64,000 nt of DNA from Selaginella tamariscina (lineage: Eukaryota > Streptophyta > Lycopodiopsida > Selaginellales > Selaginellaceae): positions 354,501-418,500 of the forward strand of contig PUQB01000167.1 of assembly GCA_003024785.1 (NCBI GenBank), read 5' to 3'. The notes under the pieces are model-generated. The model worked only from the letters and a program-made list of their open reading frames with translations. It was not told the DNA's origin and searched no databases. Shown here piece after piece: positions 1-62,025 of the stretch (positions within the stretch are counted from its first letter, which is position 1; the number at the start of each line of letters is the position of its first letter). Both the position numbers and the translations under genes were made by a program.

Positions 1-3000
1 CTTCTGCATCTTCTATTGATGTTTCCATGGGTCCTGGAGTGTGCGAATGTTCTGTACTCCTCGAGATAACTTCCGGTCTAATATCTGATTGAAGTTCGTT
101 CTCAGACTCCGAGATTGAACCAGATTCACCTTCAGAGCTATCGCACTTATCTGGAGGGAACTTTCTCAAATACGCCTTTATGGATTCGTTGGGGTACTCA
201 GTTGAGACCCAATCTATCCACTTGTTCAGGTCCTCAACCATGGTCTTATCCTTTTCAACGGCAAACACACATGTATGCCGAAGGTAACACTCCTTCAAGA
301 CGGACCCCCTAGTGCAGTAGTCAAAAACCCACGCATCACTGTGAGGACCCCTGATCAAGTTGACGATGCTCCGTGCCGCTTGACTTGTAATGTTTGGATA
401 ACGTACATTGCCGAATACGTCACTCACCTATCGGTGTATCGGATGGAGGTTCAGGGCCGTTGGAGTGCAAACAGATGCCTGGCCAGTCATTTGGAAGCTT
501 GAAATTGTTTGGCGCATTCCTAACAACCAAGTGAACAACGGTATCAATGCACTTGGGATTAGCATCGTTCATATAAAATCCTGTCCAACGATGTCTATTC
601 TTCTTGGCGAAGGCGAAGGCAAAAGTATCGGTGACATGAGCAAGAATCAAGAAATAAATACCTGAAAAAGTAGGTATCAGTGAAGAGCGCAAGCATGAAT
701 TCAATAATAAATACCTTCTATGTATATGCTTGCACGGCTAAGTTTCTCCACCAGATCCTCTAGTGCCCTATCTGTCGAAAGATTTTTTGACACCCGCCGA
801 TCCATCACGAACAATTGAAACGGTTTCCTACAAGCAGTGATGTTACCCCATAAAGTCTCCGAATCTAACAACAAACATCTGTAGGGCTTGTCGTGATTCG
901 TAGCATCCTCCTTTATAAGGTTCAATTCGGTTCTCCGCTGCTGAAGGACTGCCATAAGAGAAGGCGTCATCCCAATGTTCTCCTTTTTGGCGTTGGCGTG
1001 CAATAGATTCTTGCCTAGATCTTCCGATTGGTTCACCCATTCGACAAGCATATCATCGTTCGTCACATGCAAATATTTGCTGACCTCTTCATATGTTGAA
1101 GTCGAGGTCCAACCCAGTTTGTGGCAGTGTATTCCCAACCACTCCTTGAAATGCCTGACCGTCTTCAACTCCATTGCCTTGAGATGAAAAGGAGAGGTTG
1201 GGCTGCTGTTATTAATTTGTAGTTTGCCATCGATCACCAAATCAGCCAAGACTTCCATCTCCTCCATCGTTGTTCCATTTAAAGGCTTCAACCATGTGAG
1301 CTTGAAATCGTTGTCTACATCCTTTGTAGATTGAACAGACTTAGCCTTCGGCGTCTTACTGGGTTTCTTTGCAGACTTTTCTGAGGGCTCCCCTTCACTT
1401 GTCTGCTTCTTCTTCAGTGTTCCTTTTGAAAAGGATTCCATAATCCCCAACCATTTGGCAAAGATCCTATCTTCGGGGCAAGAAATCAACATCATCAGAA
1501 AGGATGTTTCCTTCCCGCCCACCTGGGCAAAATCAACTGCTGCAATTTCTTCAACTCTCTGAGGAAAAAGACAGATTAATATACCGGCGAGATAAATCCC
1601 GCCCAAACAATTTGCTTACCCGGTATTCCGCAGATTGTGTATTCCCTGCGGTAGCTCTTTGTGGTCGCTGAAGAGATTCCCACACGGCTCGCGTGTGTTT
1701 AAACTTCTCCCATATTTTGCTGTTGTAGTGGTTGGTGTCGGCAGCGTCCCATTCCGCCGATAACTTATGGTACTGCTCGATTGTGAGATTCGGCTTAGCT
1801 AAAAACGCCGATCTTTTTGTCAGCTTCTCACGGGTATGCTCGGAAAGTTTTGTTGCCATCGTTCCTTTGTTGTGTTCATCGAGAAGTCGTTGGGCTGCCG
1901 TTATTGTGTGCTGGCCACTAATGATGTAGTACTTGATAGATTTTTATTCTCCGTCTGAATCTTCATGAGTTGTTCTGGTGTTGTGATCCAGACTTTGTCA
2001 GCGCCCTTCCTTCTTTCATAGTATGGACACAAAACAGCATTATGTGGAACGGTATAAGAATTGTCGTCCTTCATCTTCTCCATGAGCTCAGCTACACGTT
2101 CCTGGTTGAGTGGCCTGTAATTGAAGTTTGGGTTGACGCTGCAATATTTAACCCTACAAGGATAAATCTTATCATCCAACATCATTTCCTTGTGACTTAT
2201 TGCAGCATGAGATGCCACAGGTGCAGCTGACAAAACGATTGATGATTTTCTTTTGCGATCCGAATCAACATGTGTGATCCCCGACTGCAGCTGTTCTAGT
2301 GTTCTCGGTACACTCTTCCAGCTCCCAAGCTTCCTAAGCAAATTGAACGTGATCTGTAGAGAACCTGAGACCGAGCCACCCTCTCAATCTCCATTATGAT
2401 GTCGCTGTGTTCTTCTTCAATGTGAAGAGGGAAGATTGCTCCACTTGCTGATTTTCTGTATTGTGAAGCAATATCTCCTGACAATACACCTACTCGATGA
2501 GTCTGAAGATTTTCGAAGTAGACATCCAGATGGATCCCCTCCATAGATGGGCTTTCGTTGAGTTGAAGAAGAACTCCAAGGTCAACATCATTAGTGAACA
2601 CGTGAACGTCATTATCCACAAGTCGACAAAACCACCCGAAATTAATGTTGTAACTGACGACCTCTGGATCCGAGAACGTGACATTGGATGGAACAAGGCA
2701 TATGTGTCGAGCATCGTCCAATCTGGGTTCGCAGCCTGCTTTCGGGTGCTTGACTAGCGAATCTACTTTCCATTGTTTTGCTTGTCCATGAGATGTGACA
2801 GAGGTTAATTTGACAGCAGCCATGGTTGCTCCAATGCGCTTCCCATTTATCTTAAAATATGGCCAAGTTGATTCCAGAATCCCCCTGCCCATCTCTTCTC
2901 CTGCTCTTGTCTTTAATGTCACCTCAATTCCACATCTGAATACAAAAATGATTAGTTCAAGTATCCGAGTATAACAGATTTTATTTTAATTCTTACCCAG

Positions 3001-3058
3001 AATTTGACGACGACTCCATACTAATGACTCGATCTCCTTGTTTGATCAAATCGTCCTT
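1..3058 (-). pseudogene. ParB-like domain plus DNA methyltransferase-like gene, multi-exon, frameshifted, runs off the left edge
   Basis: Not a gene I know by name. Read on the minus strand: exon 3058-2997, intron 2936-2996 (61 bp), exon from 2935; introns 1559-1619 (61 bp) and 662-714 (53 bp), all GT-AG, with joins that keep frame. The first possible Met is at 3019. Domains in order: a GDRV-type N-terminal domain (about 3050-2800); a ParB-like core (about 2160-1860) with RPLNQERVAELMEKMKD, then YYIISGQHTITAAQRLL, matching the R-x-L...GxHR layout of ParB/sulfiredoxin-like domains (family knowledge); a basic Lys/Ser/Thr linker near 1400; then a methyltransferase-like module with motif IV position CLLLDSETLWG (about 830), a strand GIYFLILAHVTDTF, and motif I position WVFDYCTRGSVLKECYL followed by acidic FAVEKDK (about 250). 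The order IV-then-I is beta-class. The DPPY motif is not canonical. Frameshifts near 2340, 1940 and 425 suggest decay or assembly error. Divergent to the gene at 9047. Confidence 0.6.
1586..1603. repeat. Degenerate copy of the 18-bp palindrome inside an intron
   Basis: Reads GGCGAGATAAATCCCGCC, two mismatches from the perfect palindrome GGCGGGATTAATCCCGCC of the clusters at 3361 and 8423. It lies in the intron 1559-1619 of the ParB-like gene, so the palindrome family is also found inside the transcription unit. Confidence 0.6.
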
Positions 3059-3160
3059 CTGCAAAATAATACACTATAATACAAATTATATAAAAACGCA
3101 CACACACTTGTATAAACCCGAATATACAAAAATAATACACAGAGAGAAGTAGACGTAATT

Positions 3161-3247
3161 AACTGTCCGAAGCTCACATTTGTGTTAGTGCAAAAGAAAG
3201 ATAACATTTCGTTTTAGAACCACCACAAATGTGAGCTCTGGACAGTT
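3161..3247. repeat. Hairpin-forming inverted repeat upstream of the ParB-like gene
   Basis: Arms of about 24 bp (3161-3184 and 3224-3247) are near-perfect reverse complements, centred on CTCACATTTGTG / CACAAATGTGAG, with a 39-bp loop. It lies about 100 bp upstream of the first recognised exon of the minus-strand gene. It could be a foldback element, or a promoter/5'-leader stem-loop. Confidence 0.65.
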
Positions 3248-3577
3248 TTACATAGATTCCTAGCTTTTACTCGAAATATTATGATAAGATGATAAAAGTA
3301 AATAAAATGAGATATGCAACTTATATATACTAATACACATATATATTCACATGGAAGGTGCGGCGGGATTAATCTCGCCACCCCTTCAATGCCTCCTGAA
3401 AGAGTGGGCGGGATTAATCTCGCCACCTTTCTGGAGGCCTTGAACGGGAGTGCGGAATTAATCTTGCCACCCTTCTCGGTCTCAGAGAGAACTGGGCAGG
3501 ATTTATTTCTCACACCCCTTCAGTGACTCCAGAAAGGAGGCGGGATTAATCTCGCCCACCATGTAAGGGATGGTTAA

Positions 3578-3700
3578 ATGAATCTCGCCACCCTTCCCAG
3601 TCCTCCATTGGTATGTTGTAAACCTTCTACGTCTTAGACAGAAACGTTTGGGATTGGTCCACTCACCAATGGAGAAAAAGGAAGGGTGGCGAGATTCATT
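3578..3700. repeat. Foldback hairpin unit, copy 1
   Basis: Outer arms of 20 bp (3578-3597 and 3681-3700) are exact reverse complements (AATGAATCTCGCCACCCTTC and its complement), with inner complementary blocks CTCCATTGG / CCAATGGAG. The loop holds GTAAACCTTCTACGTCTTAGACAG. A diverged second copy is at 4018-4143. MITE-like in form. Confidence 0.75.
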
Positions 3701-4017
3701 CTCCAACAGGCATTGAAGACTCGGCGGGATTAATCCCGCCGCCCAGGGCCTTCACAGGCCATGCGGCGGGATTAAATCCCGCCCAATTCGCGCAGGAATG
3801 GGTCGCGGGATTAATCCCGCCTCCCAGGCCTTCACTCGGCCTTAGTCGGCGGGATTAATCCCGCAATGCCAATGCCCTGTGCAAAATCTTGCGGGATTAA
3901 TCCCGCCGCCTAGGCCCTTCAGGCAGGCCAATGGCGGCGGGATAAATCCTGCCCGATTCCGCGCAGGGCATGCGTACGCGGCGGGATTAATCCCGCCCAC
4001 CATGTAAGGGATGGTGA

Positions 4018-4143
4018 AATTAATTCCACCACCCTTCTCAGTTCCCTCCATTGGTATTTTGTAAACCTTCTCCGTCTCAGACAGAGTTAGTCGGGATTAA
4101 TTCAACATACCAATGGAGGAAAAAAAGAAGGGTGGCGGGATTA
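4018..4143. repeat. Foldback hairpin unit, copy 2
   Basis: Same organisation as the unit at 3578: the left arm contains CCACCCTTCTCAGTTCCCTC and CATTGGTAT, the right arm ATACCAATGGAGG and GAAGGGTGG, and the loop the related TTGTAAACCTTCTCCGTCTCAGACAG. The right arm runs directly into a perfect palindrome at 4134, so hairpin and palindrome families are interleaved. Confidence 0.7.
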
Positions 4144-4879
4144 ATCCCGCCACCGGGTAATGAAGGTTCGGAGAGACTAATCCGCCGCCCTTTCGTAAAT
4201 CATGCGCTCACACATATATATTGGCTGCGGCATTTTGAACAGGGATGGGTGGGGGCGGGATTAATCCCGCCACTTATATCCTGCGGAAGTGCCTGAGCGG
4301 CGGGATTAATCCTGCCGCTCCGCGAAGGGCATGAGCGTGGGGCCGGATTAATCCCGCCGTTCATGTCCTGCGTGAATTCCCTGGGCGGCGGGATTAATCC
4401 CGCCGCCTTACGCGTAGGACATGTCATGCAAGCTCTTCGGTTAGCCTTCCGTGCAGGATCTTTCATGCAGGCTCTTCGGTTAGCCTCATGAGCGGCGGGA
4501 TTAATCCCACCGCCCATCCCCTGTAAATGCCCTGTGCAAATCCGGCGGGATTAATCCGCCCATTAGGGCCTTCATACAGGCCATTGTCGGCGAATAAATC
4601 CCGCCGCATTCCGCGCAGGGCATGGGTGAGCGACGGGATTAATCCCGCCGCCGAGGCCCCTCACGCAGGCCATGGGCGGCGGGATTAATCTCGCCGCTCT
4701 TCGGTTTGTCCTAGAGCGGCGGGATTAATCCCGCCGCCCATGGCCTGCGTGAAGGGCCTCAGCGGCGGGATTAATCCCGCCGTCGAGGCCATAAACTTAT
4801 AGCGGCGGGATTAATCCCGCCGCTCGAGGGGCTTAGCGTGTGTGCGAGAGATAAAATTAATAAATAAAAAAATTATACA

Positions 4880-4903
4880 GATAAAAACACACACACATAT
4901 ATA

Positions 4904-4934
<31 letters not shown>

Positions 4935-5575
4935 GTATGTATGTATGTATAGGAGTGTACGTGTGTGTGCAAGAGATAGATAAATAAATAAAATTATACA
5001 GTACTGGTACACATAATATATGTGTGTACATAGGTATATATATGTGTGTATATGTATATCGTGTGTATGCGTGTGAGCGAAACAAATAAAATCATACAGA
5101 TAAACAAACACACACACACACATATATATACATAGGAGTGTGCGTGTGTGTGCGAAAGATAAAACTAATAAACAAATAAAATTATACAGATAAACACACA
5201 CATATATATGTGTGTATATAATATATAATCCATAAAGAAAGAGAGAGACTCTGTGAATATATAAGCATATATATAAACTAGTGTTGTATGTATGTATATA
5301 TGTATATAGGTTATATATATGTGTATATGTATATTGTGTGTATGCGTGTGTGAGCGAAACAAATAAAATCATACAGATAAACAAACACACACACACACAC
5401 ACATATACATACACAGGAGTGTGCGTGTGTGTGCGAGAGATAAAACTAATAAATAAATAAAATTATACAGATAAACACACACATATATATGTGTGTATAT
5501 AGATATATAACCCATATGAATATATAAGCATATATATAAACTAGTGTTGTATACTATTTGTTAATATGCATTGAT

Positions 5576-5607
<32 letters not shown>

Positions 5608-5925
5608 GTGTGTGTGTGTGTGTAAAGCAGTGTGTGTGTGTGTGGGAGAGATAGATCAATAAAAAAAAATTTACAGATACTGGTACACATAATATATGTA
5701 TGTATATATGTATATAGGTATATATATATATGTGTATATGTATATCGTGTGTATGCGTGTGTGAGCGAAACAAATAAAATCATACAGATAAACAAACACA
5801 CACCCACACACATATACATACATAGGAGTGTGCGTGTGTGTACGAGAGATAAAACTAATAAATAAATTTATATGCACACTCCTATACATATATACATACA
5901 TACACACACACACACAGATCTCACC
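4880..5925. repeat. Compound TG/TATA microsatellite block with internal duplications
   Basis: Consists of (TG)n, (ATGT)n, (TA)n and (AC)n tracts plus a reiterated phrase (GAGCGAAACAAATAAAATCATACAG, at about 5077, 5352 and 5763; quoted region is 5352-5376 for one copy) showing duplication of units of several hundred bp. The long His/Tyr/Thr-rich reading frames here are microsatellite artefacts, not genes. Confidence 0.9.
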
Positions 5926-6900
5926 TGTGTGCACAGCCGCCGCCTCTTGAAACCCTAAGAATATACCTAAACCCTAAAGGAATTAAATATATATATTAAC
6001 CCTAATAGAATATTCCTTCTGAGAATATACTTAAACCCTAAAAAGAATAAAATATAGATTCGCCCTAAACGAATATTCTTTCATTATATTATTAGCGCGT
6101 GCGTGTGCGTGGGTGTATCACATACACCCCAAAAATATAAATCATGCAGGGATTTAACATGTGTGTGTCCATGAGAGTGTTAAAGTTTCATGTGTATCAA
6201 TACATACATACACATTGCATATATTAATATACATAATATTACAGACACACATACATATTACATGGGTTTAGGGTTTAGGGTTTAGGGTTTTGGATTTAGG
6301 ATGGATCATGCATGGTGTGTATGTATGAAGAAGAGAGAGTGTTGAAAAATTATTTTTGTACACATTGCATATATTAGTACACATATATACTTACACATAT
6401 TATACACAGATATACATACATAGTATATGAGAGAAAGAGACAGTACATATTATGGATCATGCATGGTGTGTATTATACACACAACATACATACATATTAG
6501 TACATAATATTAGAGAGACCGAGTACATATTATAGATCATGCATGGTGTGTATGTTTGAGAGAAGAGAGACAGTACATATTAACATGGATCATGCATGGT
6601 GTGTATGTATGAGAGAAGACAGAAAGTACACATATATACATACAGAGTACACATATATACATACACACGTGTATACACACAGACATACATACATATTACA
6701 TGAGTAAATTCATTGTGTTAGGGTTTAGGGTTTAGGATGGATCATGCATGGTGTGAAGAGAGAGTGTTGAAAAATTATTTTTGTACACACATGTATACAC
6801 AGGGTTTAGGGTTTAGGGTTTAGGGTTTGCTCCCAACAAGCTTAATATAAATATTACACATGTAAATTCAATGTGTTACATACACACAGATTGAGTACAT
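5926..6900. repeat. Interstitial telomere-like tracts and a dispersed 15-bp motif
   Basis: Short runs of the plant telomere repeat TTTAGGG occur at about 6265-6295, 6718-6736 and 6802-6830, with CCCTAAA-oriented pieces near 5950-6070. Among them ATCATGCATGGTGTG recurs five times (about 6304, 6456, 6534, 6592 and 6740) with GAGAGAAGAGAGA-like tails. No gene is seen. Confidence 0.8.
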
Positions 6901-7039
6901 ATATCATACATGCGTTGAACATGATGTTTTCAATAAAGAAGCAACATATTTCTTCAGTTTGGTTTAGGGTTGTGCATGTGTGTGCATATGTGTTTTTGTA
7001 AGTTCTTGTAATGCGTGTGTAAATTTATGATTGTGTTTA

Positions 7040-7960
7040 TATATGTGTGCAAAACAAACATCGAATAATTAAGAAAATAATATTAATAAACACACTATGA
7101 ACATATTTTAAATTATACATAATAATATATGATTTTATCTAATATATAGCCATATATAGTTTTAATAATATATATTAATTTAATATTGATAAAAAGGTTT
7201 AACATTGAAATATTCTTGAAATAATAAGAAATTAATTGAGAAAATCCCATTAATATATACAAATGTAAATTAAGTACTCAAATAATTAACTAAATTAATT
7301 ATCATAATCATGTTTAATATTGGAATATTCTTGGAATAATAAGAAAATAATAAAGAATATCCCATTAATATAAAGAAGATTAATTACTCAAGTAATTAAG
7401 GAAATGATATTAATATATATTATTAAACTATATATGACTAATATTAAATAAAATATGTATTATTATTATATTTAAATATGTTCATATGTGTATTAATTTA
7501 ATATTGATAATAAGGTTTAACACATGAATATTCTTGAAATAATAACAAATTAATTGAGAAAATCCCATTAATATATACAAATGTAGAATAATTACTGCAA
7601 TAATTAAGAACAAGACTAATTTAATTATGATAATCAGGTTTAATATTAGAATATTCTTCAAATATTAATAAAATATAAAGAATATCCCATTGATACTAGG
7701 AAATGAAAACTAAATACTCGAGTAATTAAGAAAATAATAATAATAAACAGACTATGAATATATTTTAAATGATACATAATAATATATCAATTTATTTATT
7801 GTATAAGTATATATATTATATATATATATATATATAATATAATATACTTGAATACTAAGAATGTAGAATATAGTCTAAAATTTCGTAATATTAAACAGCT
7901 TGAATCACTTGAATAACATTAAATGCAATTTTAAAATACTCATTGGAACTGGAGAGTATA
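7040..7960. repeat. AT-rich diverged tandem repeats
   Basis: Units containing GGTTTAA...GAATATTCTTGAAATAATAA...AATCCCATTAATATA recur near 7195, 7310, 7513 and 7638; a longer segment (TAATAAACACACTATGAACATATTTTAAATT-like) is present near 7085 and 7742. Repeat length is about 120-200 bp with strong divergence. No coding potential is seen. Confidence 0.65.
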
Positions 7961-8067
7961 TATGTCAGAGTGTCGGATATTTGTGTCAACTCATCTTAAA
8001 TTTTATTTTTGTTCTTTTTAAAAAATTTGAATTTCTGACATATGTATTGTCGGTCTGACATGTAAAT

Positions 8068-8252
8068 TTGAAAATGCATTTAATTTCCCACTCAAATTCA
8101 GATCTGGTTCTTTCTCCGGCAAGGGTTTCTTCATTTCTGTATTTTTCACTCTTTAGATCTTCTTTTTTCTTCATAGTGATCATCTCAGGAGCGAGATTAA
8201 ATTGGGTGCTATTCTTTATAGGAAAGCACGGCGCCTTCAGTGCTGTTTACAA
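8068..8252 (+). other. Possible 5' leader exon of the downstream transposase-like gene
   Basis: A less AT-biased stretch ends at ACAA|GTAAGT (8252/8253), a good splice donor. The next good acceptor, TTTATGTGCAG, ends at 9041, directly before the first exon of the gene at 9047. The frame entering that exon has a stop (TAG near 8153) and no upstream ATG, so this exon would be untranslated. Inference from splice signals only. Confidence 0.35.
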
Positions 8253-8422
8253 GTAAGTATTATAAACAAATTTAAAAATACTTATAAAGATTCACTCTCT
8301 TACATTCTCTCTTAAAATTACAATTTAGGGGTTTAGGAATGCATTAGGATTATAATATATTCCGTTAGGGATTTATCCCGTTTAAATATCCTTTTAACTT
8401 AATATTCTAGGTTAACCGGGGC

Positions 8423-8892
8423 GGCGGGATTAATCCGGCCATTTCTTTTTCGCCTCTTCGAAGAGGTGGCGGGATTAATCCCGCCACCATCTCTCGGGCA
8501 ATGCTTCTCCGCCACTGAAAAAGAGTGGCGGGATTAATCCCGCCGATAACCTTCTCAACTGATGAAGAGTTACCAGAATTTATTAGAAAGAGTTGTCGGC
8601 GGGATTAATCCCGCCAACCATTTTAGGAGGCAGGGAAGGGGTGGCGGGATTAATCTCGCCACCACATCCCTGTTTTAAGGATTTGGGGACAGGATTTATC
8701 CCGAGATCTCTTTGAAATCATAGTTTTGGAGAGAGTTATGTGCGGGTTTAATCCCGCCACCCATTCCCCGTCGTAAGAATTGTGGGCGGGATTAATCCCG
8801 CCGACTCTCTCCGAAGGGGTTGAGTCGGCGGCGGGATTAATCCCGCCGACCGTTCCTCGTCGGAGGGATTCGTGGGCGGGATTAATCCCGCC
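8423..8892. repeat. Palindrome cluster 2, within the putative leader intron
   Basis: About ten copies of GGCGGGATTAATCCCGCC. Perfect copies start at 8468, 8527, 8598, 8785, 8830 and 8875; one-mismatch copies at 8423 and 8643; weaker ones at about 8690 and 8741. The last three perfect sites are exactly 45 bp apart. Elsewhere spacing is looser than in cluster 1, and the spacers are unrelated to cluster 1 spacers, so the palindrome is what is conserved. Confidence 0.9.
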
Positions 8893-9046
8893 CATCAGTT
8901 GTATTAATCAAACATGAGATATTATCTCTAAACATAATTATGTATTATTGCATATGCATATTATTAAGTAACCGTAATTCAGATTTCTTAGAAATATTGC
9001 ATAAACAGATATCATAAATAATACAATTATTTATGTGCAGGACAAT

Positions 9047-12000
9047 ATGTTTAATACTGGAGATAAAGTATGTCTTCTTCGGAACAACGAGATAGTTGGC
9101 ACTGGAACTGTGGAAGTTCGAGATAATAATGCATCATGTCACAATATTGCCCAAGGATCTTGTGTGTACGTATGGGTGAACACCATTTACAAGCATGTTG
9201 AGGTTCTGGGAATGGAATTTGAGGAGGGTTCTCCTGTATTGTGGAATTTGGATGAAGTCAAGGCTGACACAGAATATGCAGAGTCACAAACAAATAGTAG
9301 CACGAGTTTACCAGATGATGGCTTGCCTGCTGTGATGGATGAGGTGATTCTCTTTCTTCGTGAGATTGAAGTCGGAAGAGGCATCATCACAGCTATAAAT
9401 CCAATGGAAGCAGTGTCAGAAGAGAAACTAGGGTCCGACTTCGTGGGTGTAGTTGTGACAGAGGTTTCACCTAATGGCACATTGTATCCTGGATCCCTCG
9501 TGAGGTGGCGAACATCTGAATTAAGACGGCAAGATGGTTCAACATATTCTGGGTTGGATTTCAATAATAACAACCCGGAAGAACAACTCATATTTGAAGA
9601 GGTTCCTTGCATTGGTCCTATTGTAAGAAAAAGGCGATTCATGGGTTGTAGATCTTCCCCTGCAAGTTTCAGCAAGAGGGTAAAGATGGATCCTACATCT
9701 TCCGAAAGTGTTACGAGCATTTCCACGATTGACTGTTGCAAGAAGAAGTGTTGTCAGATGGCAGACCGGAATGAAATTACCCAATGTAGACATGTCTTTC
9801 GTATGCTCACCCAAAAGCAAAGGCATGAGTTTGTATATGCTGCACTAACTGGGTGTATTGATGGAATGGCCTCGGACACAGGTTATCAGAGTACATCCAT
9901 GGTATTTAATAAGGTGGCCATCTGCTTCAAAGCTTGGTACAGTATATACGGGATCCCAAAGACCACGTTCTACCGTCGGAGGGATGAGTGGCTAGATGGA
10001 GCGCGAACCTCAGTTCATGGGAACACTCGCTTGGTCAAAACCCGCTCTCACATCATGGCAGCCATAGAGATACTCAAGGCTTTTGTGGAAGCAAATGCAG
10101 ACAGGATGCCTCACAAATGCCGAACCACAAATGCAGGGGTCAGGGAAAATCTCAAGGTTTTGCCTTCAATCTACACTCAATTGAAGCTGTGTGAACATGT
10201 GAACAAGTGCCTCAGTTTGATGGGGCTCCAAGCAATCTGCACTGGTACCTTCAACAACATATGGAATACTCATTTTAAGGATGTGGAGATTGCAAAACAC
10301 TCTAGCTTTTCCAAGTGTGACACTTGTACATCATTGAAGGCTGCAGAGGCTTGTGCAAAAACCTTGGTGGAGATCACTACCATTCAAAAGAAGATGGAGG
10401 CCCACATGATTGCACAACAAACTTGCCGGTCTCAGTACTATGCACACCGCATGCTTTCTGTGTCACGCCCATCAGAGTACCTGTGCTTGATCCATGACAA
10501 GATGGATCATTCAAAGACCAGCATTCCAAAGCTCTTTGCAACACCAAAGTGCCTTGGAAATGTCATGAAACTTCCGATTTCATTGACAGGTGTGCTAACA
10601 CATGGACACGGTTGTGAGTCATATGGACACTTTTCACTTCCACATTGGTCTAGCGACTCCAATTTCACTATTGGGTCGTTAGCCATGTGTTTCAGAAACC
10701 TTGAAGCCCACTCACAGACAAGTCCTATCAGTGATCTCAAAGTGAAGAAACAACACCTTCAACCTTTACATAATGCTCTCATGAACACATCTGCACTTGA
10801 GGCTACTTGGGAATATGAGAGGCATTGTCAACAGCCTGCACAGAAAAAGATGGCCCTGTTGAGAGTTCTGGTTCAGTGGAGGGATCTAGCTCAAATAGTG
10901 TACATGTGTCCTCAACATCAAATAAGCTTCCTCGTCATTTGCTTTTACAGATGGATAATTGTGCAGGCGAGAACAAAAATAGGTAAATCATTTTACTTAA
11001 GGGTTTCTCAAGCTCATACTTACTTTTATTTTCTAGATATGTGCTAGCATACTTGTCAATGCTTGTTGCCAAAGGTGTGTTTGAAACAATCACGCTCAGT
11101 TTCCTTATGGTTGGTCACACTCATGAAGATATTGATGCGTTCTTCAGCAAGGTCTCCAACTCTACAAAAAGGACAAGTGCACTTACCTTACCGCATATGA
11201 TGAATCTTTTTGAAAATTGCATCTCCAAAAAAAGTTGTGCTTTGCTTGTGACTGAGGTGCCAGACTTCAAAAAATTTCTCAAGGAGTATATAAAAGAAGG
11301 GAGTGATTCTTTAGTTGGTCACCTTGTGCCGCTACAATTCTTTTTCTCCATACGAGATGGTATACCTATTATGCAGTACAAGTTACGGCCATCAGAGCAG
11401 GAGTGGTTACCGAAAGAGGGCTTAATGCTCTTCAAAAGTGGAGAGGATGGAAAGCCACTTCTCCCAGAAGGACAACCAGACCCTATTCCATTGAGTGCCC
11501 AGCTCAAGGAACAAGAGGTTATTATTGATGGCATCAAAAAATATGTGGCATGGGTTCAAAAATCGATGCCAAAGAATTCTGATAAGGCAACTGGTTACTC
11601 AGAACTATATAAGCATGTGGTCACTATTGGGAGACTGTTGTTCGAGAGTTGGAAGGGCCTACTGTCACAAGTACAGAATTGCAACACCCTTTCTGGCCTA
11701 AAACAAGGTGGCGAGAGGAGATTGAAATGACATCACTGAGCATAGACGACATAGAAGCCAGTAGTGATGTGGAAGTGCAAACCCCACACTTTGTTGGACA
11801 AAGGAACCAAAAACCTAAAGCATACTTTGATTGCTGCAAGGATCTTCAAAAACTAATGATGGTTCTCATTACTCCAGATGCGTCATATAATCAGCCTATT
11901 TGGATGGGTCAAATTATCGACACACCTGAAGTAATCACAAAAATAGTATTGTTAAGGTTGCATGGTTCAAACCACAAAAAAGGCGACACGAGAAGGAGAG

Positions 12001-12163
12001 CGAAAGATATAATGGATGCCTAGAGAAAACATGGTCTCCCAATCAAAAAGACCCAGCATGTTTTATAAATGTTAAATCCATTCGATATGGGTGGATGTCA
12101 AGAAGCGTTGATAAAGTCACGATTAACAAAACTGCAAGGGAATGTATGTTTTCTGAAGCTTAA
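9047..12163 (+). pseudogene. RNase H-like transposase-like protein (DUF7869-like), frameshifted
   Basis: Start taken at 9047, just after the acceptor ending at 9041. N-terminus: GDKVCLLRNNEIVGTG, a small domain like that in the divergent gene, possibly repeated (MDEVILFLREIEVGRG near 9335). Then a Cys-rich CCKKKCCQ segment (about 9737), a helical region with YGIPKTTFYRRRDEW, and a zinc-binding-like KCDTCTSLKAAEAC (about 10315). The catalytic-like core follows: LCLIHDKMDHSKTSIPK (about 10482), MDNCAGENKN (about 10951), and FLMVGHTHEDIDAFFSKV (about 11100), which give three acidic positions as in DDE/RNase H-fold proteins. An intron with GT-AG ends lies at about 10983-11035. The C-terminal segment (IWMGQIIDTP, then VAWFKPQKRRHEKESER) ends at TAA 12161-12163. 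Frame changes near 10840, 11650 and 11950 are needed. Transposase activity is inferred from fold motifs; the family label is from memory. Confidence 0.6.
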
Positions 12164-12655
12164 AGCAATTACAAAATTATAAAATATCATATATTTAATA
12201 TTCATAATTATTATAAACTCTTTAATAATAGTACCAAATTGTATACTTAACTATATAAATTTAAAAAATGATATGGAAGATTGACTATATTATTATAGGA
12301 TTTTATATATATATTATTACTACTACAAATTTTTAATTAATAATGTTATATTTAAATATTAATATTTTAATAACAACATCAATATTTATATAATGTACCT
12401 CTTATGCTCTTCCTTAATTGTTATATTAGGCAATATATTATATAATTTAATACCTTCTACTTTTATAATGTTATTAATTTTTGTTCAATGAATGCTATAA
12501 TTTATTAAAGGGTAGAATACAAAATAGAATATTCTAAAGAATATTCTTTTCAAACATATATTCTAAAGAATATTCCTTTAATATTAGAAAATGCTAATTA
12601 AATAGCTAAAATTGCTAATTATTAGGAAATGGGACTATAGCCATGCCCATTTTAG
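12164..12655. other. AT-rich intergenic stretch
   Basis: About 490 bp of A/T-rich sequence with several GAATATTC-like palindromes (about 12520-12580). I see no coding region and no clear promoter or polyadenylation site. Confidence 0.6.
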
Positions 12656-12659
12656 TTAC

Positions 12660-14540
12660 AACTTGCATACTTGGGGAGGAGTGGTTCCAAGAAGGTGACA
12701 AACATCTCTCATAAGCAGTGTCGCTGGATGGGCATTGAGAAGCTGTATGCGATGTCAAGGGCGAAGATTCCAAACATGATGCGACTCCGATACCTGAACA
12801 AGCTCACCTGTCTCGAATCCAAGGCAGAACAACAACACTTGGGCTACCGGGCATGTAAGACAAGAGTGGATCAAGTGGTTCACCTTGGACTTTATATTGG
12901 AAGGTTGTGCGCGAGAAGCCATTCAGATCCTTAAGGGTTGCGAGAGGATGGTGAAGAAGTTGGAACGGATCGACTTCATTAGCTGGTTTGACGAGATGAG
13001 AACTCGGAGCAAGTGCCTGGTCTTTCAGCCCTTCCATGACTGCATACGGTTCACTTATTCGATGGAGCCGAATGAGTTTCTGGAGCGTGAGGAATCTACG
13101 CGTCGGATGATATGGAGGTAAGCTTTCAATCCAACATTGCTACTGTCTGACTTTGTGTTGCAGGTTCATACTGGCGAAGCAAATGACACCGTCCCATACG
13201 ATGAAGCTGTGGACAGATCATACAAGCGAGCCTCACATGTGGTCGAAGAGCAGAGGAGCTCTAACACCGTTCGAACGGGAGCATGTTCCATTCTGGCTCG
13301 ACTGTCTGTCGCAACAGCCACCAGCTTGGGAGAGCACACTATTCGACATGCACGGCAATGATCTACCAACGATTGTTTGGGAGCCAGAAGAAGTAGAGGC
13401 TATCAAGAAGAGCAAAATGAAGAAGACGGTGCGGAAGACAACTACACCTGCAAAGGGATCGGGAGCGGGACCAAGCTCTTCTACAGCACCTCCGCCGGCA
13501 TTCGACTTTACAATCAATGAGGTACAGCCACTTGTAGCTAGTTTGGACATCAAGGACGACCTGATGACCTTCATCCCGACCCTAGCTGCATCCCATGGAT
13601 CCTACGACCTAGTTGTGTGTGACATGGAGGAGATGAGCAGGTCTTTCTTCGAGCCGGGTGCTTCCTAGACAGAGGTGTACACCAAGCTCTGACAACAGGT
13701 TGACAGACTACATACGGTTGAGTCACAAACGGTGTTCCAGGAAGTGGTAGGTGAATACGGCTTCAACCTCATCATCCTCGACTTGCCCAATGAGCTTGTA
13801 TATGGAGGTGCTAGCATCAACAAGGACATTGTGCAGCTAGATCCGGTGAAGTTTGAGGAGGCCTTGTAGTTCAGTGGAATGCACTTGGCAGCGAGTGGTT
13901 TCATGGTCGTCTTTGCGAGTTCTCCTTCTGTTTCGGCGGTGATTCAGGCGGCTGCAGTAATCAACTTGGAGGTTGCAAGGACTTACAGCGTCTATTGTGC
14001 ACGAGGCTGGGGATACCGTGACAAAATTAAGGTAAGCTGGCTATTCAAGTTCAAGTTTAACTTGGTCTATGTGGCAGGATAACTTGTTAGTTCTCTTGGT
14101 GCTGCAAAGCTCTGAGAAGAAGTCGAAGAGGCCAAACCCTCTGGCGTTGACGAACACGATCCTCGTTGACACTGCCGACCGTTATCAGGAGGCTTGGTAA
14201 GGAAGTACTTTGCTATGTTTATCCTAATGGAAGTTTGTGCAGGATTATGATTCAACCGAAGAGTGTTCGACTCATGCAGCTTTTGATCGAGCGTCTCAGT
14301 AGACCTGACGACCTAGTCTGGGATATTGGTTCCGGAACCGGGTCATCATTGTTAGCTGCCGTCGAGCTCGGAAGGAATATTATAGGAACCGAGAAGAGTT
14401 TCAAACTCTCTAGGTTGGCAACAAACAAGCTTGCAGAGAACATTAGACCAAAAGAGTTACCTACTCAAACACCTCCACGTCCAAGCGTAACTGGTGGTTT
14501 GAGAACTGCAGCTTTACTTAAGATGAAGAAGAAACTTTAG
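12660..14540 (+). pseudogene. DNA methyltransferase-like paralogue of the minus-strand gene, decayed
   Basis: Coding-like segments in more than one frame: 12671-12934, 12885-13118, then after a short GT-AG intron (about 13119-13162) a long segment to 13668 with a basic linker (MKKTVRKTTTPAKG) and FDFTINEVQPLVASLDIKDD, which matches the layout of the minus-strand gene linker. Next, FNLIILDLPNELVYGG (about 13750) occupies the methyltransferase motif IV position. AASGFMVVFASSPSVSAV (about 13885) fits the following strand-helix, and DLVWDIGSGTGSSLLAAVEL then IIGTEKS (about 14310-14400) is a good motif I plus acidic loop. Order IV-then-I is beta-class (N4/N6-adenine or cytosine type). In-frame stops at about 13668, 13690 and 13868 break it. 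No ParB-like domain is seen in this copy. DLPN instead of DPPY questions activity. Confidence 0.55.
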
Positions 14541-14731
14541 CTAATGTATATTGAGTAATAAATTAAGCTAAAATAAAAAAAAATAAAATAGAAATACAAC
14601 ATTTTAATAGAATTCTTTTTTGCCGACTGAGGCCAATACTGCCAACCAAAAAGAATATTCCAAAATATTCTAGAATATTCTTGAATATTCAAGCCCAGGC
14701 TTCCTGGGCCCCAAGCCTCCAAAATGGCGAC
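14541..14731. other. Right flank of region 1, with clustered GAATATTC palindromes
   Basis: A-rich sequence followed by several copies of GAATATTC/AAATATTC (14648-14690) and CCCAGGCTTCCTGGG, a 15-bp dyad (14694-14708). Homology to the Crinkler-like gene begins abruptly at about 14732, so this is a candidate element boundary. No terminal inverted repeat can be checked because the left end is outside the window. Confidence 0.4.
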
Positions 14732-14830
14732 ACTCCTTTTGAACGTGTGCAACGATGGTTACATCTCTATCGTGATCATGTTTCCTACAACGGTGGATCG
14801 TGAGAAGCAGAAAAACAAGAGCAATGAGAA
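14732..14830 (+). pseudogene. Crinkler-like gene, 3' fragment (unit 0)
   Basis: About 95% like 60952-61050 by eye: TTTTGAACGTGTGCAACGAT onward, through the lysine-rich EKQKNKSN segment. It begins abruptly after region 1 and diverges after AAGAGCAATG. It is the tail of a copy whose body is missing here, in the same orientation as the longer gene at 57967. Confidence 0.8.
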
Positions 14831-57966: not shown

Positions 57967-60900
57967 ATGGCGGACAGTGTTGTTGTGACGCTAGAGAGAC
58001 GGCAGTGTGGTTTCCAAACAAGTCTGTTCGCCACAAGGCAAGGCTGCCAAAAGAATTCTGGCGATAGTTGAGAGGAAAGGGCGGACTGGCTATCTCCAGA
58101 GGGATGGGTTTGATCTGGACGACGATGATCTTGTTTATCCAGGGACTATCACTTTCATTCCTTCAGGCAAGTTATTTGTATCTGCTTGGCCATTGACTGG
58201 CCATGGCGTTCCTTCTGGTGTGTAAACGCTTTTGTTTATTTTTGCAGGCCCTCCTGCGACCACGAGTGGAGCATCAGGTACCCAATATTCTTCCAAAACA
58301 TTATCTAGTTTTGTGCTTGTGTGCCTCCTTGCTATGCCCTGGAGCTGGTGTCATGGACCACCAGATGTTTTCCATTGTTGTCGGTGTTTAGTAGATCATT
58401 TGTGTGTCGGTGGGCTTTTTTGCCGCTTGATTTGGCTTGATTTCTCCATGTTTTGCCCTCTATAGCCGATTTGTGATATAGTTTCTTTTGGATTGTGATT
58501 TTGCCCGTTGTGTGTGGTGTCTTGGCGTCTGTGTGTGTCTTGCTTTCGCTATGGTGTCTTGAGAGGTAATTGTTGTTAGATGTCATCCTTTTTCTTGTTG
58601 GCTTATGGGGTCTTGTGTGAGAGGTTTCTGGTTGTGCTTTGGATCTGTTATTGCTGGTCTAGATTTTGTGTGCTTTGCGGGTGTACGTGGCTTTAGCCAT
58701 GCCTATATGTAGCACTGACAAATCTGTGTTTGTTTTTGCAGCTCCTGCCCTGCCCCTGATCATGCTGGTAAGTTTTATTTATGTTTTGGTTACTTCTGTT
58801 ACTTGTGGTCTCCTATCCCGTCGTGTTACTGGTCGACTTTCGTTGCCTATTGGATCTGGATGCTTGCATTCTCTAGCTTGTGCGTTTTTCTTTTCCTGGT
58901 TCTGTGCATTGTTGTTTTTTCGCAATTACGTGTTTCCTCGCAAATGCCCCCTGTCTGCCCTTGTGTCGGTCTTTGTCTTCAGAGGTTTGAAACCCTGTCT
59001 CATATTGCTATGGCTTTGCCTGTGTCGACTTCATGGTATCTTCATGCCTCTTGATTTTGTGACATTCTTATATTAGAAACTGGTCGGTTTTTGACTGGCG
59101 ACGGCTTTGTGTAGCATCTCCGGAGCAGATATTCGAAGCCTGGGTGGATCGGAGAAAGGACTTTTTCAAACACGATTTTGAGCTACCTCTATCCAAGAAT
59201 TTTGGGGGTCGTTTAGCTTCGAAGGTCAACCTGCCTTGCATTGGGAAGAGTCCATGTTTACTGCTTCATGGTTTGGAACCTGGCATCACCAAACATGAGA
59301 ATTGCAAAGCAGGATACGGGCAGCAGCGATTTGGCAAGAACCTTTTTCCGGTGCTGGGTGTCAGCGGGTGTGGAAAAACACGTCTGGCATACGAACTACT
59401 GGCGCATACTTTTGGCTTTTACTTGGTTGCTGACGTTGACAAGAATGGTGGCTCCAGCGATATAAGTAGCCTGCAAAATGGACCTGAGTACGGATTTTCG
59501 GCCGTGGACAACACTGCAATGGCTGAGCTGGCTACGTTACAGATTATTCTGGCTAGGCTAATGATCTTTAGCACAGTCAGAAAAGCGTCACCGGTTTCAC
59601 TCCTTGCCGCTGGCTTATGATGCAGGCATGTTTCATAGAATTCGTTGGTTATGACCCATTCTTAGAGCTGTCTGTGGCACTCGAGGCATGCTCAAGGGAC
59701 TCTATACAGCACTCAATTGACAAGCTGTGGCTAGATGAAGCTGTTTGGGTGCTCGACGAGGCCCAAGTTCTTGGTACAGGACGAAAGCTATTTCAGTCGG
59801 CTAAGACAAAACACCGGAGGCATGCCTTCTCTCCCATCCTGACAAGCCTTTTGTATCCTAGTGACCGGGCACAGATTCAGAAGCATATAGTGGTGATCCT
59901 GGGCACAGGGCTGAGCTTCTTGAGATTGGAGGAATCCATTGCATCAAAGCTTGCCTGGTTTAGAACGGACATGACAAGAGACGAATTGTTTATTTGGGAC
60001 TTGCACACTAGCTGGTCTGAAGAAACTATCCAGGAGTACGTATCATCTTTATTGGAGGTGGATGCTGCGGTGGTTGCAGAAACGTGCAAGTGGCTTGTTG
60101 GTCGCAGGAGGCCCGTAGCGACACTCGTGGAGCTGATATTACTCTCTGGAGACTTGCCAGGGGTGTACTGGCAGAGTTTGTGCGAGTGTGTACACGAGAG
60201 AACGTAGCTGGGTCCTTCTATGGTAGCATAGCAAAGCTCTATTATGATGAGGATAGACAGGGGAGCTTCTATCTGCGAGGAGGTCAGCCCGTGGATTTTG
60301 CTCAAGTTCTTAGAACAGTGGCTACATTTGTTCTAACTGTGGGGATGGCGAGATTATTGGTGAACGCAATGATCTTCTATTAGTTGAATATGGGCTCGGG
60401 AATGTGACCAGGTTGGAACGGAACAGGCTAGTCTTCACCATTGATGAGCCGTTGGTGAAGGAAGCCATGACGTGCTTCGCGTGGCAGAAAGGTCTTGTAG
60501 CCCATCGGCTGAAGAGTCACATGACGTTGACAGTGGATGTTCCAAGCATTGGTGGTCGCATTTGGGAGAAATTGGCTTGTTTGGACATGGAGGAATGGTT
60601 CAGAACACTTCCGAGGCTTGAAGATTGTCCATGTTTCCAACGACGAGAGGATATACCGCGGGCATGGAGGACTAAACGTGTGGAACTTTTTGGAGTGCGG
60701 CCTGATCTCTTGGCAGTAGAGTCAACTGTGGATATACAGGACTTCATAAATGGGACAGGGATTTGGAAGTTCTACTCGTTTGACGATCAGTCTGGTCCTG
60801 ACATAATGTTCTTTTTGAAGATTAATGGAAAGCTGGTCCCCGTCTTCTGCCAGTTTAAGCTGAGAAAAGACTCTCTGTAGCCGAGGCTAACAAGGCTGTG

Positions 60901-61182
60901 AGAACAACAAAGGTTGGTAAAATGTACCCGCACAACAAGGACAAACGGGACATGCTTTTGAACGTGTGCAACGATGGTTACATCTCTATGGTGATCGTGT
61001 TTCCTGCAACAGTCGATCGTGAGAAGCAGAAAAACAAGAGCAATGTGGCAGCAGAGAAACGGAGGTTGATTGGGTACGTGCAGGAGGCGCACATGGAAGC
61101 TATGTTTGCAGGAAGTCACGAGCTTCTTTGTGCATTAAAGGGTGTTGAGATTCGCCCTGGTAACCGACCCAGACTCGCATGA
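57967..61182 (+). pseudogene. Crinkler-like protein: P-loop NTPase plus restriction-nuclease-like domain
   Basis: Exon 1 57967-58217 (one frameshift near 58010), exon 2 58248-58277, exon 3 from 59115; these joins keep frame. The N-terminal part has AKRILAIVERKGRTGYLQRD and an acidic DLDDDDL. Exon 3: CLLLHGLEPGITKHENCKAG, Walker A GVSGCGKTRLAYELL (about 59357) and FGFYLVADVDKNGGSSDI; Walker B VWVLDEAQVLG (about 59747). The C-terminal domain has GPDIMFFLKINGKLVPVFCQ then FKLRK (about 60800-60865): D...Q-x-K of PD-(D/E)xK nucleases. This layout matches Crinkler/RHS-type proteins (NTPase + REase). Frame changes near 59612, 60150, 60390 and 60880 break it. Pathogen Crinklers act in host nuclei; the role of plant-encoded ones is unknown. 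Exact family assignment is from motifs only. Confidence 0.6.
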
Positions 61183-62025
61183 ATTGACCTTGTTCTTGGA
61201 AGTCCGAGCAAGGTAAACAGGTCATTTTTCAATGGTTTATAAGAGGACAAGCCAAAAGTTTCAAGCATGTAACGCTAAAAATAATACATACTAATACTTT
61301 TTCTTTTTCTTTAAATTTTTACATTAGTTTAATGAAATATAAAATGTTTTGATTTAATTAAAACTCAATTGATAAGTTAGCACCATGCGCTGCTCCATGA
61401 ACATCAGCATCGGAGGCCCATTGTGGTATAGCTGTTCACATGTAAACAGGTGCACACGATTCTTATACACACAATGTACAATATGCATGGTCCTTGATAT
61501 GTATATATTTAATATATATCAATTATATGTGCACCATTTTTCAAACATATATGTATATATATGAATTTTAATTTTTGATTATCCTACACTTCTACTACAA
61601 CATGCCCACACAAAACATGTTTAAGTAATATACATATAAACAATATGCATTATTTTTTATAACATGTGTATGTTAAATGTATTTATAAATCCCATCCCAA
61701 AAACCCTAATTAATATAATAAAAAAACCATTACACGTCGTAAAGGTAAAGAGCAGGAATAAAATTTGTGAATATTCACTGTGGTACTCCATTTGCATTAT
61801 CCAACGGTTCAAAAATTAATATGAAATATTCACTTTATATGCTTTCATATATTTGTGTTGCATCTACGTTATAGTTTAGATATATGATTTGTCACAACAA
61901 TATTATTTAATCACTTCCATTTTTGCATTTTAAAATTTTATATAATAAGGGGTTAAGAGTTCTTGAAATTCCTGACAAATGAAAATGACTAGGATAATGG
62001 CCAAGAGACTAATTATATGGAGGAA
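61183..62025. other. AT-rich stretch after the Crinkler-like gene
   Basis: About 840 bp of AT-rich sequence with TATATA and ATGTATAT runs and no recognisable gene. A candidate polyadenylation-type AATAAT lies about 100 bp after the stop. No match to the corresponding region after 14830 was noticed. Confidence 0.5.

Follow-up and report, generated by a model that had tools for sequence, protein, structure and literature searches.

Sola transposons produce a 4-bp target duplication (AT-rich in Sola2), encode a DDD-type transposase, exceed 15 kb in some cases and are present in Physcomitrella (PMC10741241, PMC3627910). VANC21 of the VANDAL transposons is described as binding YAGTATTAY motifs, with loss of DNA methylation (PMC5735166, PMC10398659), and fungal DNA transposons are described as carrying TET/JBP dioxygenases (PMC12730594). 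Here we describe a 64,000-nucleotide stretch of the Selaginella tamariscina genome (C468:354501-418500, hereafter the window, to the left of which positions are given as negative numbers) that holds one copy of a DNA transposon, most likely of the cut-and-paste type. By its described features the element is Sola-like, and it additionally bears accessory genes and arrays of a palindrome. Among the papers listed by literature searches, none was relevant, by title and abstract, to ParB in Selaginella or to DNA transposons in S. tamariscina.

The element shares with Sola a putatively DDD-like transposase, its size and a non-flowering plant host, and it also creates a 4-bp target duplication. It differs in its two accessory genes, its central palindrome arrays and its very many long copies. 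In bacterial ParB-parS systems, a ParB protein is found beside clustered 16-18-bp palindromes, and here too a protein with a ParB-like motif (recognized by eye) is encoded beside clustered palindromes. However, this minus-strand gene (hereafter the minus gene) has no significant match to a ParB profile, and there is neither a demonstrated helix-turn-helix nor an episome. An accessory protein encoded beside the transposase is likewise a feature of VANDAL elements (MULE) with their VANC proteins, as are non-coding arrays of short motifs, which differ from one related element to another (PMC5735166, PMC10398659). In contrast, the transposase and target duplication of our element are different, its motif is an 18-bp palindrome, and the resemblance to VANC is one of layout. 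Finally, the fungal TET/JBP transposons (PMC12730594) likewise carry a non-transposase gene that may affect the epigenetic state of the element itself, although the superfamilies and the accessory enzymes are not the same.

The transposon spans positions -1813 to 12668, or 14,482 bp (G000:C468:352687-367168), in a genome of 300,702,823 bases and 1,391 contigs. It begins 1.8 kb to the left of the window, and positions 1-12668 are its in-window part. On contig C1, two loci could be aligned to the window together with the flank on its left (copy C over -1817 to 12669, copy B over -1814 to 12668); they match at 86-99% per aligned block, and similarity ends at the same two points in both. The ends of the element, established by end comparison and genome counts, are 27-bp inverted repeats with two differences between them. 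The right end, ATGCAAGTTGTAACTAAAATGGGCATG when read inward, occupies 12642-12668 on the minus strand, and the left end, ATGCACGTTGTAACTAAAGTGGGCATG, starts at -1813 (L001:8187); in copy C the outer bases of the left end differ (ATTAC versus ATGCAC). An earlier note on this DNA had placed the limits of the element at 1 and 14731, and these must be replaced at both sides: a NIF phosphatase gene left of the window lies inside, and the right limit at 12668 therefore leaves positions 12669-14731, including a second methyltransferase gene, outside.

Insertion of the element is accompanied by a duplicated ACTT, with the right copy at 12669-12672 and the left copy at -1817 to -1814, and empty sites carry a single ACTT. 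The 21 copies compared were 18 of 20 end pairs fetched together with the window, B and C. The 4-bp flanks are identical in 11 of them, and mismatched left/right pairings agree in only 8 of 420 cases. One of these 11, L076/L077, requires a left end that is one base longer. When the flanks were joined around a single ACTT (126 bases), an end-to-end match of 98-99% was found at all 40 loci scored from 718 first-look candidates. Such identity figures lean high because our genome searches scored only the best candidates. The empty-site sequence CCAGACTTGGGG was present in each of the six loci read directly. These uninterrupted target sites mean that the insertion point is known exactly and that it lies within another multi-copy gene. 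Shared fixed inverted ends, target-site duplication and empty sites are therefore all found, as is characteristic of terminal inverted repeat (TIR) DNA transposons of class II.

The inner 21-mer of the ends, GTTGTAACTAAARTGGGCATG, occurs exactly 1,482 + 1,444 = 2,926 times in the genome, and its reversed control does not occur at all. The first 100 ends listed include 25 facing pairs less than 30 kb apart, of which 22 are of the left/right type, with lengths of 10.2-26.2 kb (median 14,573 bp), and all 25 are at least 10 kb long. Thus, most measured end pairs of the family are still full-length. Halving the count of exact end repeats, which registers exact matches only, gives an inferred family of roughly 1,400-1,460 copies, or about 21 Mb and ~7% of 300.7 Mb, and our best explanation is that many of these copies are recent. 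High-copy DNA transposons are mostly short and gene-less, and for that reason a high-copy element of 14.5 kb is unusual. Here, one long DNA transposon may make up 7% of the 300 Mb of a plant genome, and it does so with three genes and with conserved palindromes at high density. The earlier note had proposed a large DNA element that combines a transposase with palindromes, and that proposal is strongly supported by the inverted ends, by the target duplications and uninterrupted sites, and by the 2,926 end repeats.

The order of parts within the element is phosphatase gene, minus gene, array A, AT-rich core, array B and DUF7869 gene. Array A (3362-4821, period about 44 bp) lies upstream of the minus gene and array B (8423-8892, period about 45 bp) lies upstream of the DUF7869 gene, possibly in its first intron as judged by eye. 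Each array thus stands at the 5' side of one of these divergent genes, and the 3.6 kb between them is the core (4822-8422), which has 27.5% GC, microsatellites and telomere-like TTTAGGG runs (6264-6300 and 6801-6828). Such runs, along with the glutathione S-transferase fragment described below, are indicative of a land plant. In 7 of 7 loci, TTTAGGG was counted 5-13 times over the whole fetched stretch, against a rough expectation of about 1-2. Both arrays consist of the palindrome GGCGGGATTAATCCCGCC, which a palindrome scan detected 31 times in the window with up to 3 mismatches, versus 0.03 expected. This confirms the two clusters that had been proposed, together with an isolated instance (1586-1603, 2 mismatches) in what appears by eye to be an intron of the minus gene. 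Genome-wide there are 27,128 exact sites and none for the reversed control, and the palindrome offers a simple annotation tag for this transposon family.

Copies were read from 11 sources, namely the window and ten further loci (L033-L042); for L040 and L041 the sequence retrieved covers just one side. Both genes and the two palindrome clusters around an AT-rich core are present in seven of these sources (the window and L033-L038). Further copies with both genes and the palindrome, for which the earlier note had proposed a search, are thus found at six of the ten additional loci, whereas L042 and L039 are incomplete. An interim unit consisting of array, AT core and array alone was overturned, since the copies align through both genes.

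The palindromes are under constraint. The 11 sources yielded 281 instances with no more than 3 mismatches, in which positions 7, 10 and 11 (numbered from 0; the T, A and T of the centre, with core GATTAATC) are changed only once each, versus 39 and 33 changes at positions 13 and 14. Spacers of equal length share just 30-59% identity. When aligned copies are compared, 0.6-8.1% of palindrome sites are changed, as against 4.6-20.1% of spacer sites, and the palindromes have the lower value in all 15 comparisons, although the alignments were anchored on palindromes chosen in the window, which biases this contrast somewhat. The arrays are therefore, as in VANDAL/VANC systems, short-motif arrays in non-coding DNA that are conserved above their spacers. 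CpG transitions are not in excess in the palindromes, with 36 changes at 4 CpG sites versus 98 at 8 other C/G sites. Observed/expected CpG is 0.97 and 1.09 in the arrays versus 0.39 and 0.41 in the DUF7869 exons, but this contrast is weak because the motif itself contains CpGs. The constraint on the central arrays indicates that they are likely bound by something, and the earlier note's suggestion that the transposase or the ParB-like protein recognizes them is plausible.

The transposase gene is located on the plus strand at 9047-12163, with a main exon from 9047 and the next from about 11037; this and all other gene models of the element were made by eye. It bears out the proposed divergent transposase-like gene, since the second exon matches DUF7869 (PF25273) at 1.2e-25 (90.7 bits versus a cut-off of 26). 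A frame change near 10880 in the window copy is absent from that place in copies B and C. The protein carries the stretches HDKMD, QMDNC (as read in the window) and GHTHEDID, which are common to its relatives. Three database relatives are 33-37% identical to it; P0001 and P0003 share HDKMD, LQLDN and GHTHEDID, and P0002 is too short for the latter two. The predicted model of P0001 has very low confidence (predicted local distance difference test, pLDDT, 37.9), and the D..D..ED stretches are shared in the alignment. A genome search with this gene gave 7,587 first-look candidates, and the best 68 that were scored show 94-100% identity; no stop is present in 62 of the 68. Many cover only the first 600 of 645 residues, which is where the window copy has its frame change. 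For the DUF7869 family as a whole, the genome yielded 4,250 first-look candidates and at least 300 matches, and none were found in 14 control genomes. The ratio of nonsynonymous to synonymous change (pN/pS) in the main exon is 0.18-0.39 against the four subfamily-2 copies with sequence there, L042 having none. No paper naming DUF7869 was found in the literature searched.

The minus gene encodes about 970 amino acids in several exons on the minus strand (1-3019, with the ATG at 3019 and the stop at about -80, outside the window), as deduced from open frames in the window and its copies. Its exon pieces, with ends placed by eye, lie near 2997-3019, 2329-2934, 1944-2338, 1617-1931, 713-1558, 426-659 and below 426. 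The stretch at 1866-2140 on the same strand contains, by eye, a ParB/Srx-like motif ('NPNFNYRPLNQERVAELMEKM ... YYIISGQHTITAAQRLL'), which is a single open frame in copy C but whose two halves are in different frames in the window. The gene is under purifying selection, with a pN/pS of 0.24-0.29 against each of the five subfamily-2 copies. The ParB-like and middle exons are constrained (0.00-0.24), and one later exon gives 0.20-0.33. Even the diverged copy L039, with 6 stops in this gene, retains a ratio of 0.31. Between the subfamilies, the block 1944-2338 has 15.5-17.5 changes at 75-77 silent sites, two to four times the divergence of its neighbours, which suggests a mosaic or recombined origin. 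All five subfamily-2 copies also have indels in the minus-gene exons, mostly not multiples of three, which reflect either decay or assembly error.

Searches for relatives of the minus gene gave no significant match in Pfam, NCBIfam, PHROGs, the Protein Data Bank (PDB), phage or protein databases. None of 7517 homologue candidates reached E <= 0.001 and none of 6359 reached E <= 1. One PDB sequence search gave a single chance-level row (E 0.35) and a second gave none, and phage, viral-contig and Rfam searches gave nothing. ParB profiles likewise gave no significant match, but they may be blind here because they also missed the DGNHR stretch of the gene that flanks the element. When the minus gene was compared by hhalign with this interrupted, ParB-like gene, the ParB-like stretch was the only match and was not significant (E 0.45), with 42 of 1000 shuffles scoring as well. 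Thus, the minus gene of the earlier note is real and is constrained over most of its length, whereas the ParB and methyltransferase modules that had been assigned to it find no significant profile match.

The third gene of the element encodes a NIF/FCP1-like phosphatase and is located left of the window on the minus strand, from -1521 to -309 (L001:8479-9691). It matches PF03031 at 3e-9 (37.2 bits versus a cut-off of 21.8) and is present in copies B and C and in all five subfamily-2 copies with their left parts fetched. Its pN/pS is 0.63-1.03 on just 2 to 6 synonymous changes.

Our preferred reading, which we hold to be somewhat more probable than its alternatives taken together, is a Sola-like transposon whose arrays are a predicted platform for protein binding. 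The simplest candidate to occupy it is the accessory protein of the element, with a putative anti-silencing role like that of VANC on VANDAL elements. The DUF7869 protein would move the element via its 27-bp ends, as suggested by these ends themselves, by the duplicated target and by the acidic residues that are conserved. The two arrays would act as a multi-site platform for a sequence-specific protein, and the most economical candidate for this binder is the conserved product of the minus gene. Perhaps such binding keeps the promoters of the element active against host silencing, as VANC does on VANDAL arrays, with the NIF-type phosphatase as a putative further accessory. An anti-silencing or activation role for the arrays has roughly even chances. 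If it proves correct, then sequence-specific anti-silencing has evolved outside the VANDAL elements, and the 27,128 natural sites make this directly testable by methylome and binding maps.

Several observations weigh against this reading. In ten of the 21 copies, including B and C, there is no exact target duplication. The minus gene has no recognized DNA-binding domain in any profile search, and an AlphaFold model of the ParB-like frame of copy C is of very low confidence (pLDDT 35.5). Its first large exon is less constrained (pN/pS 0.34-0.62), and its last exon is unconstrained (0.74-2.53 on few changes) and has one stop in each of the five copies. Moreover, the five pN/pS values are not independent because the copies appear to share one ancestral split. 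Frame changes occur in the window copy, B and C, some of which are perhaps assembly errors. The linkage of parts is also imperfect: L042 (C1:128000-133000) has the minus gene and array A without the core or the DUF7869 gene in the 1.8 kb beyond, and L039 (C1:2055000-2062000) is rearranged and decayed, also in its minus gene, and retains a single cluster and 108 bp of the DUF7869 gene. Lastly, a host factor or the transposase might be what uses the arrays instead.

The latter possibility, in which the transposase itself would bind the palindromes or they would act as an enhancer for assembly of the transposition complex, strikes us as doubtful. The subterminal motifs of En/Spm-type elements are transposase binding sites, and it is consistent with such a function that the arrays are accompanied by the transposase gene in the seven sources noted above. 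The N-terminal part of the DUF7869 protein also has a weak match to Transposase_23 (TNP1/En/Spm), although its E of 0.012 is below the cut-off. However, the arrays are central, about 5.2 kb and 3.8 kb from the ends, and the 27-bp ends lack such a palindrome. A slightly less probable candidate is a host DNA-binding factor (e.g. E2F-like), for which the palindromes would form a promoter/enhancer pair serving the divergent genes. The placement of the arrays at the 5' sides of both genes would suit this proposal, as would the AAACCCTA boxes that are present 3-12 times, counted over the whole fetched stretch, in 7 of 7 loci checked; GGCGGGA half sites in the palindromes are E2F-like. Yet the most conserved positions are central (7, 10 and 11) and the G/C positions 13, 14, 0 and 4 change most, which is not the pattern of an E2F core.

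Two further proposals assign a ParB-like function to the minus gene. It is rather improbable, and a little more so than action by a host factor, that a putative ParB-like accessory protein loads on the ~27,000 dispersed palindromes and keeps about 1,400 copies open or physically clustered. If true, one protein would link and protect the whole family, in a eukaryotic parallel to ParB-parS that is carried by a transposon and serves anti-silencing rather than segregation. Very unlikely is a true ParB/Srx-methyltransferase fusion that methylates the DNA of the element at or near the palindromes, even though the ParB-like motif is visible by eye and the neighbouring repeat family has a gene that combines a ParB-like stretch (DGNHRLQAL, by eye) with PF01555. 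The minus gene has no match to PF01555 or any other methyltransferase profile, and its motif-I region scores 17.0 against the interrupted gene, below the shuffle mean of 21.9. No DPPY-like motif was seen in it, and the corresponding place reads 'FVMDRRV' by eye. The unconstrained last exon is also where motif I would be expected. The matching methyltransferase is that of the interrupted gene, and the suggestion that the element modifies its own DNA was accordingly rejected.

This interrupted gene, which the transposon has split, belongs to another repeat family. Its 5' half (L001:6804-8186) and its 3' half (12673-14540, plus strand, outside the element) together constitute one ParB-like/N4-N6-methyltransferase gene, of which uninterrupted copies exist elsewhere. 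The 3' end matches N6_N4_Mtase (PF01555) at 14241-14537 (4e-9, 37.2 bits versus a cut-off of 26.7), and the second methyltransferase paralogue of the earlier note is therefore a real gene that is merely misplaced. Uninterrupted copies L098 and L101 contain CWDGNHRLQALQKL, which includes a ParB/Srx-like signature by eye (DGNHRLQAL), whereas a Pfam scan of the ParB-like frame found nothing. PF01555 is abundant in the genome, with 739 first-look candidates, and all of the best 150 that were scored matched. The catalytic motif of N4/N6 methyltransferases is (D/N/S)PP(Y/F/W). At the expected place, the interrupted gene lacks DPPY and instead has DLPN ('ILDLPNEL'), both in the window and in L089-L092, L095, L098, L101 and L103. 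Thus, a second high-copy repeat family (L001:6804-8186, window 12673-14540, L089-L103) carries a ParB-like and PF01555 gene with DLPN in place of DPPY. A repeat family with such a gene is unusual for a plant.

The segment at 14541-14731 probably belongs to this outer repeat family. The earlier note had proposed to look for a terminal repeat that pairs with it, and a search of the 20 kb to the left of the window gave no match of at least 60 bp. Transposase-like frames are visible by eye at L001:1852-4940 on the minus strand; a SWIM zinc finger is weakly matched by one of them (0.0036, below the cut-off), and the other four that were scanned have no match. These frames are possibly the transposase of the outer family.

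A 2.9-kb repeat is present at 58717-61595 of the window, and a second copy lies at -11264 to -8456. Small pieces of it flank the outer repeat on both sides (-8458 to -8328 and 14722-14826), which suggests nested insertions. This repeat is perhaps what the earlier note called a Crinkler copy, and three of its frames have no Pfam match at 0.01. Elsewhere, a single palindrome at C1 2071485 (L044 around 3485) lies just outside copy C, apparently in an older array. Copy C may thus be located beside or inside an older decayed array, and elements may insert into each other. The copies at C1:898900 and C1:917600 (L105, L106) have common bases just left of their left ends (about 18 visible), which suggests a duplication that included an element. 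The window also contains a glutathione S-transferase fragment (PF02798, 1.6e-8) that looks tau-class by eye.

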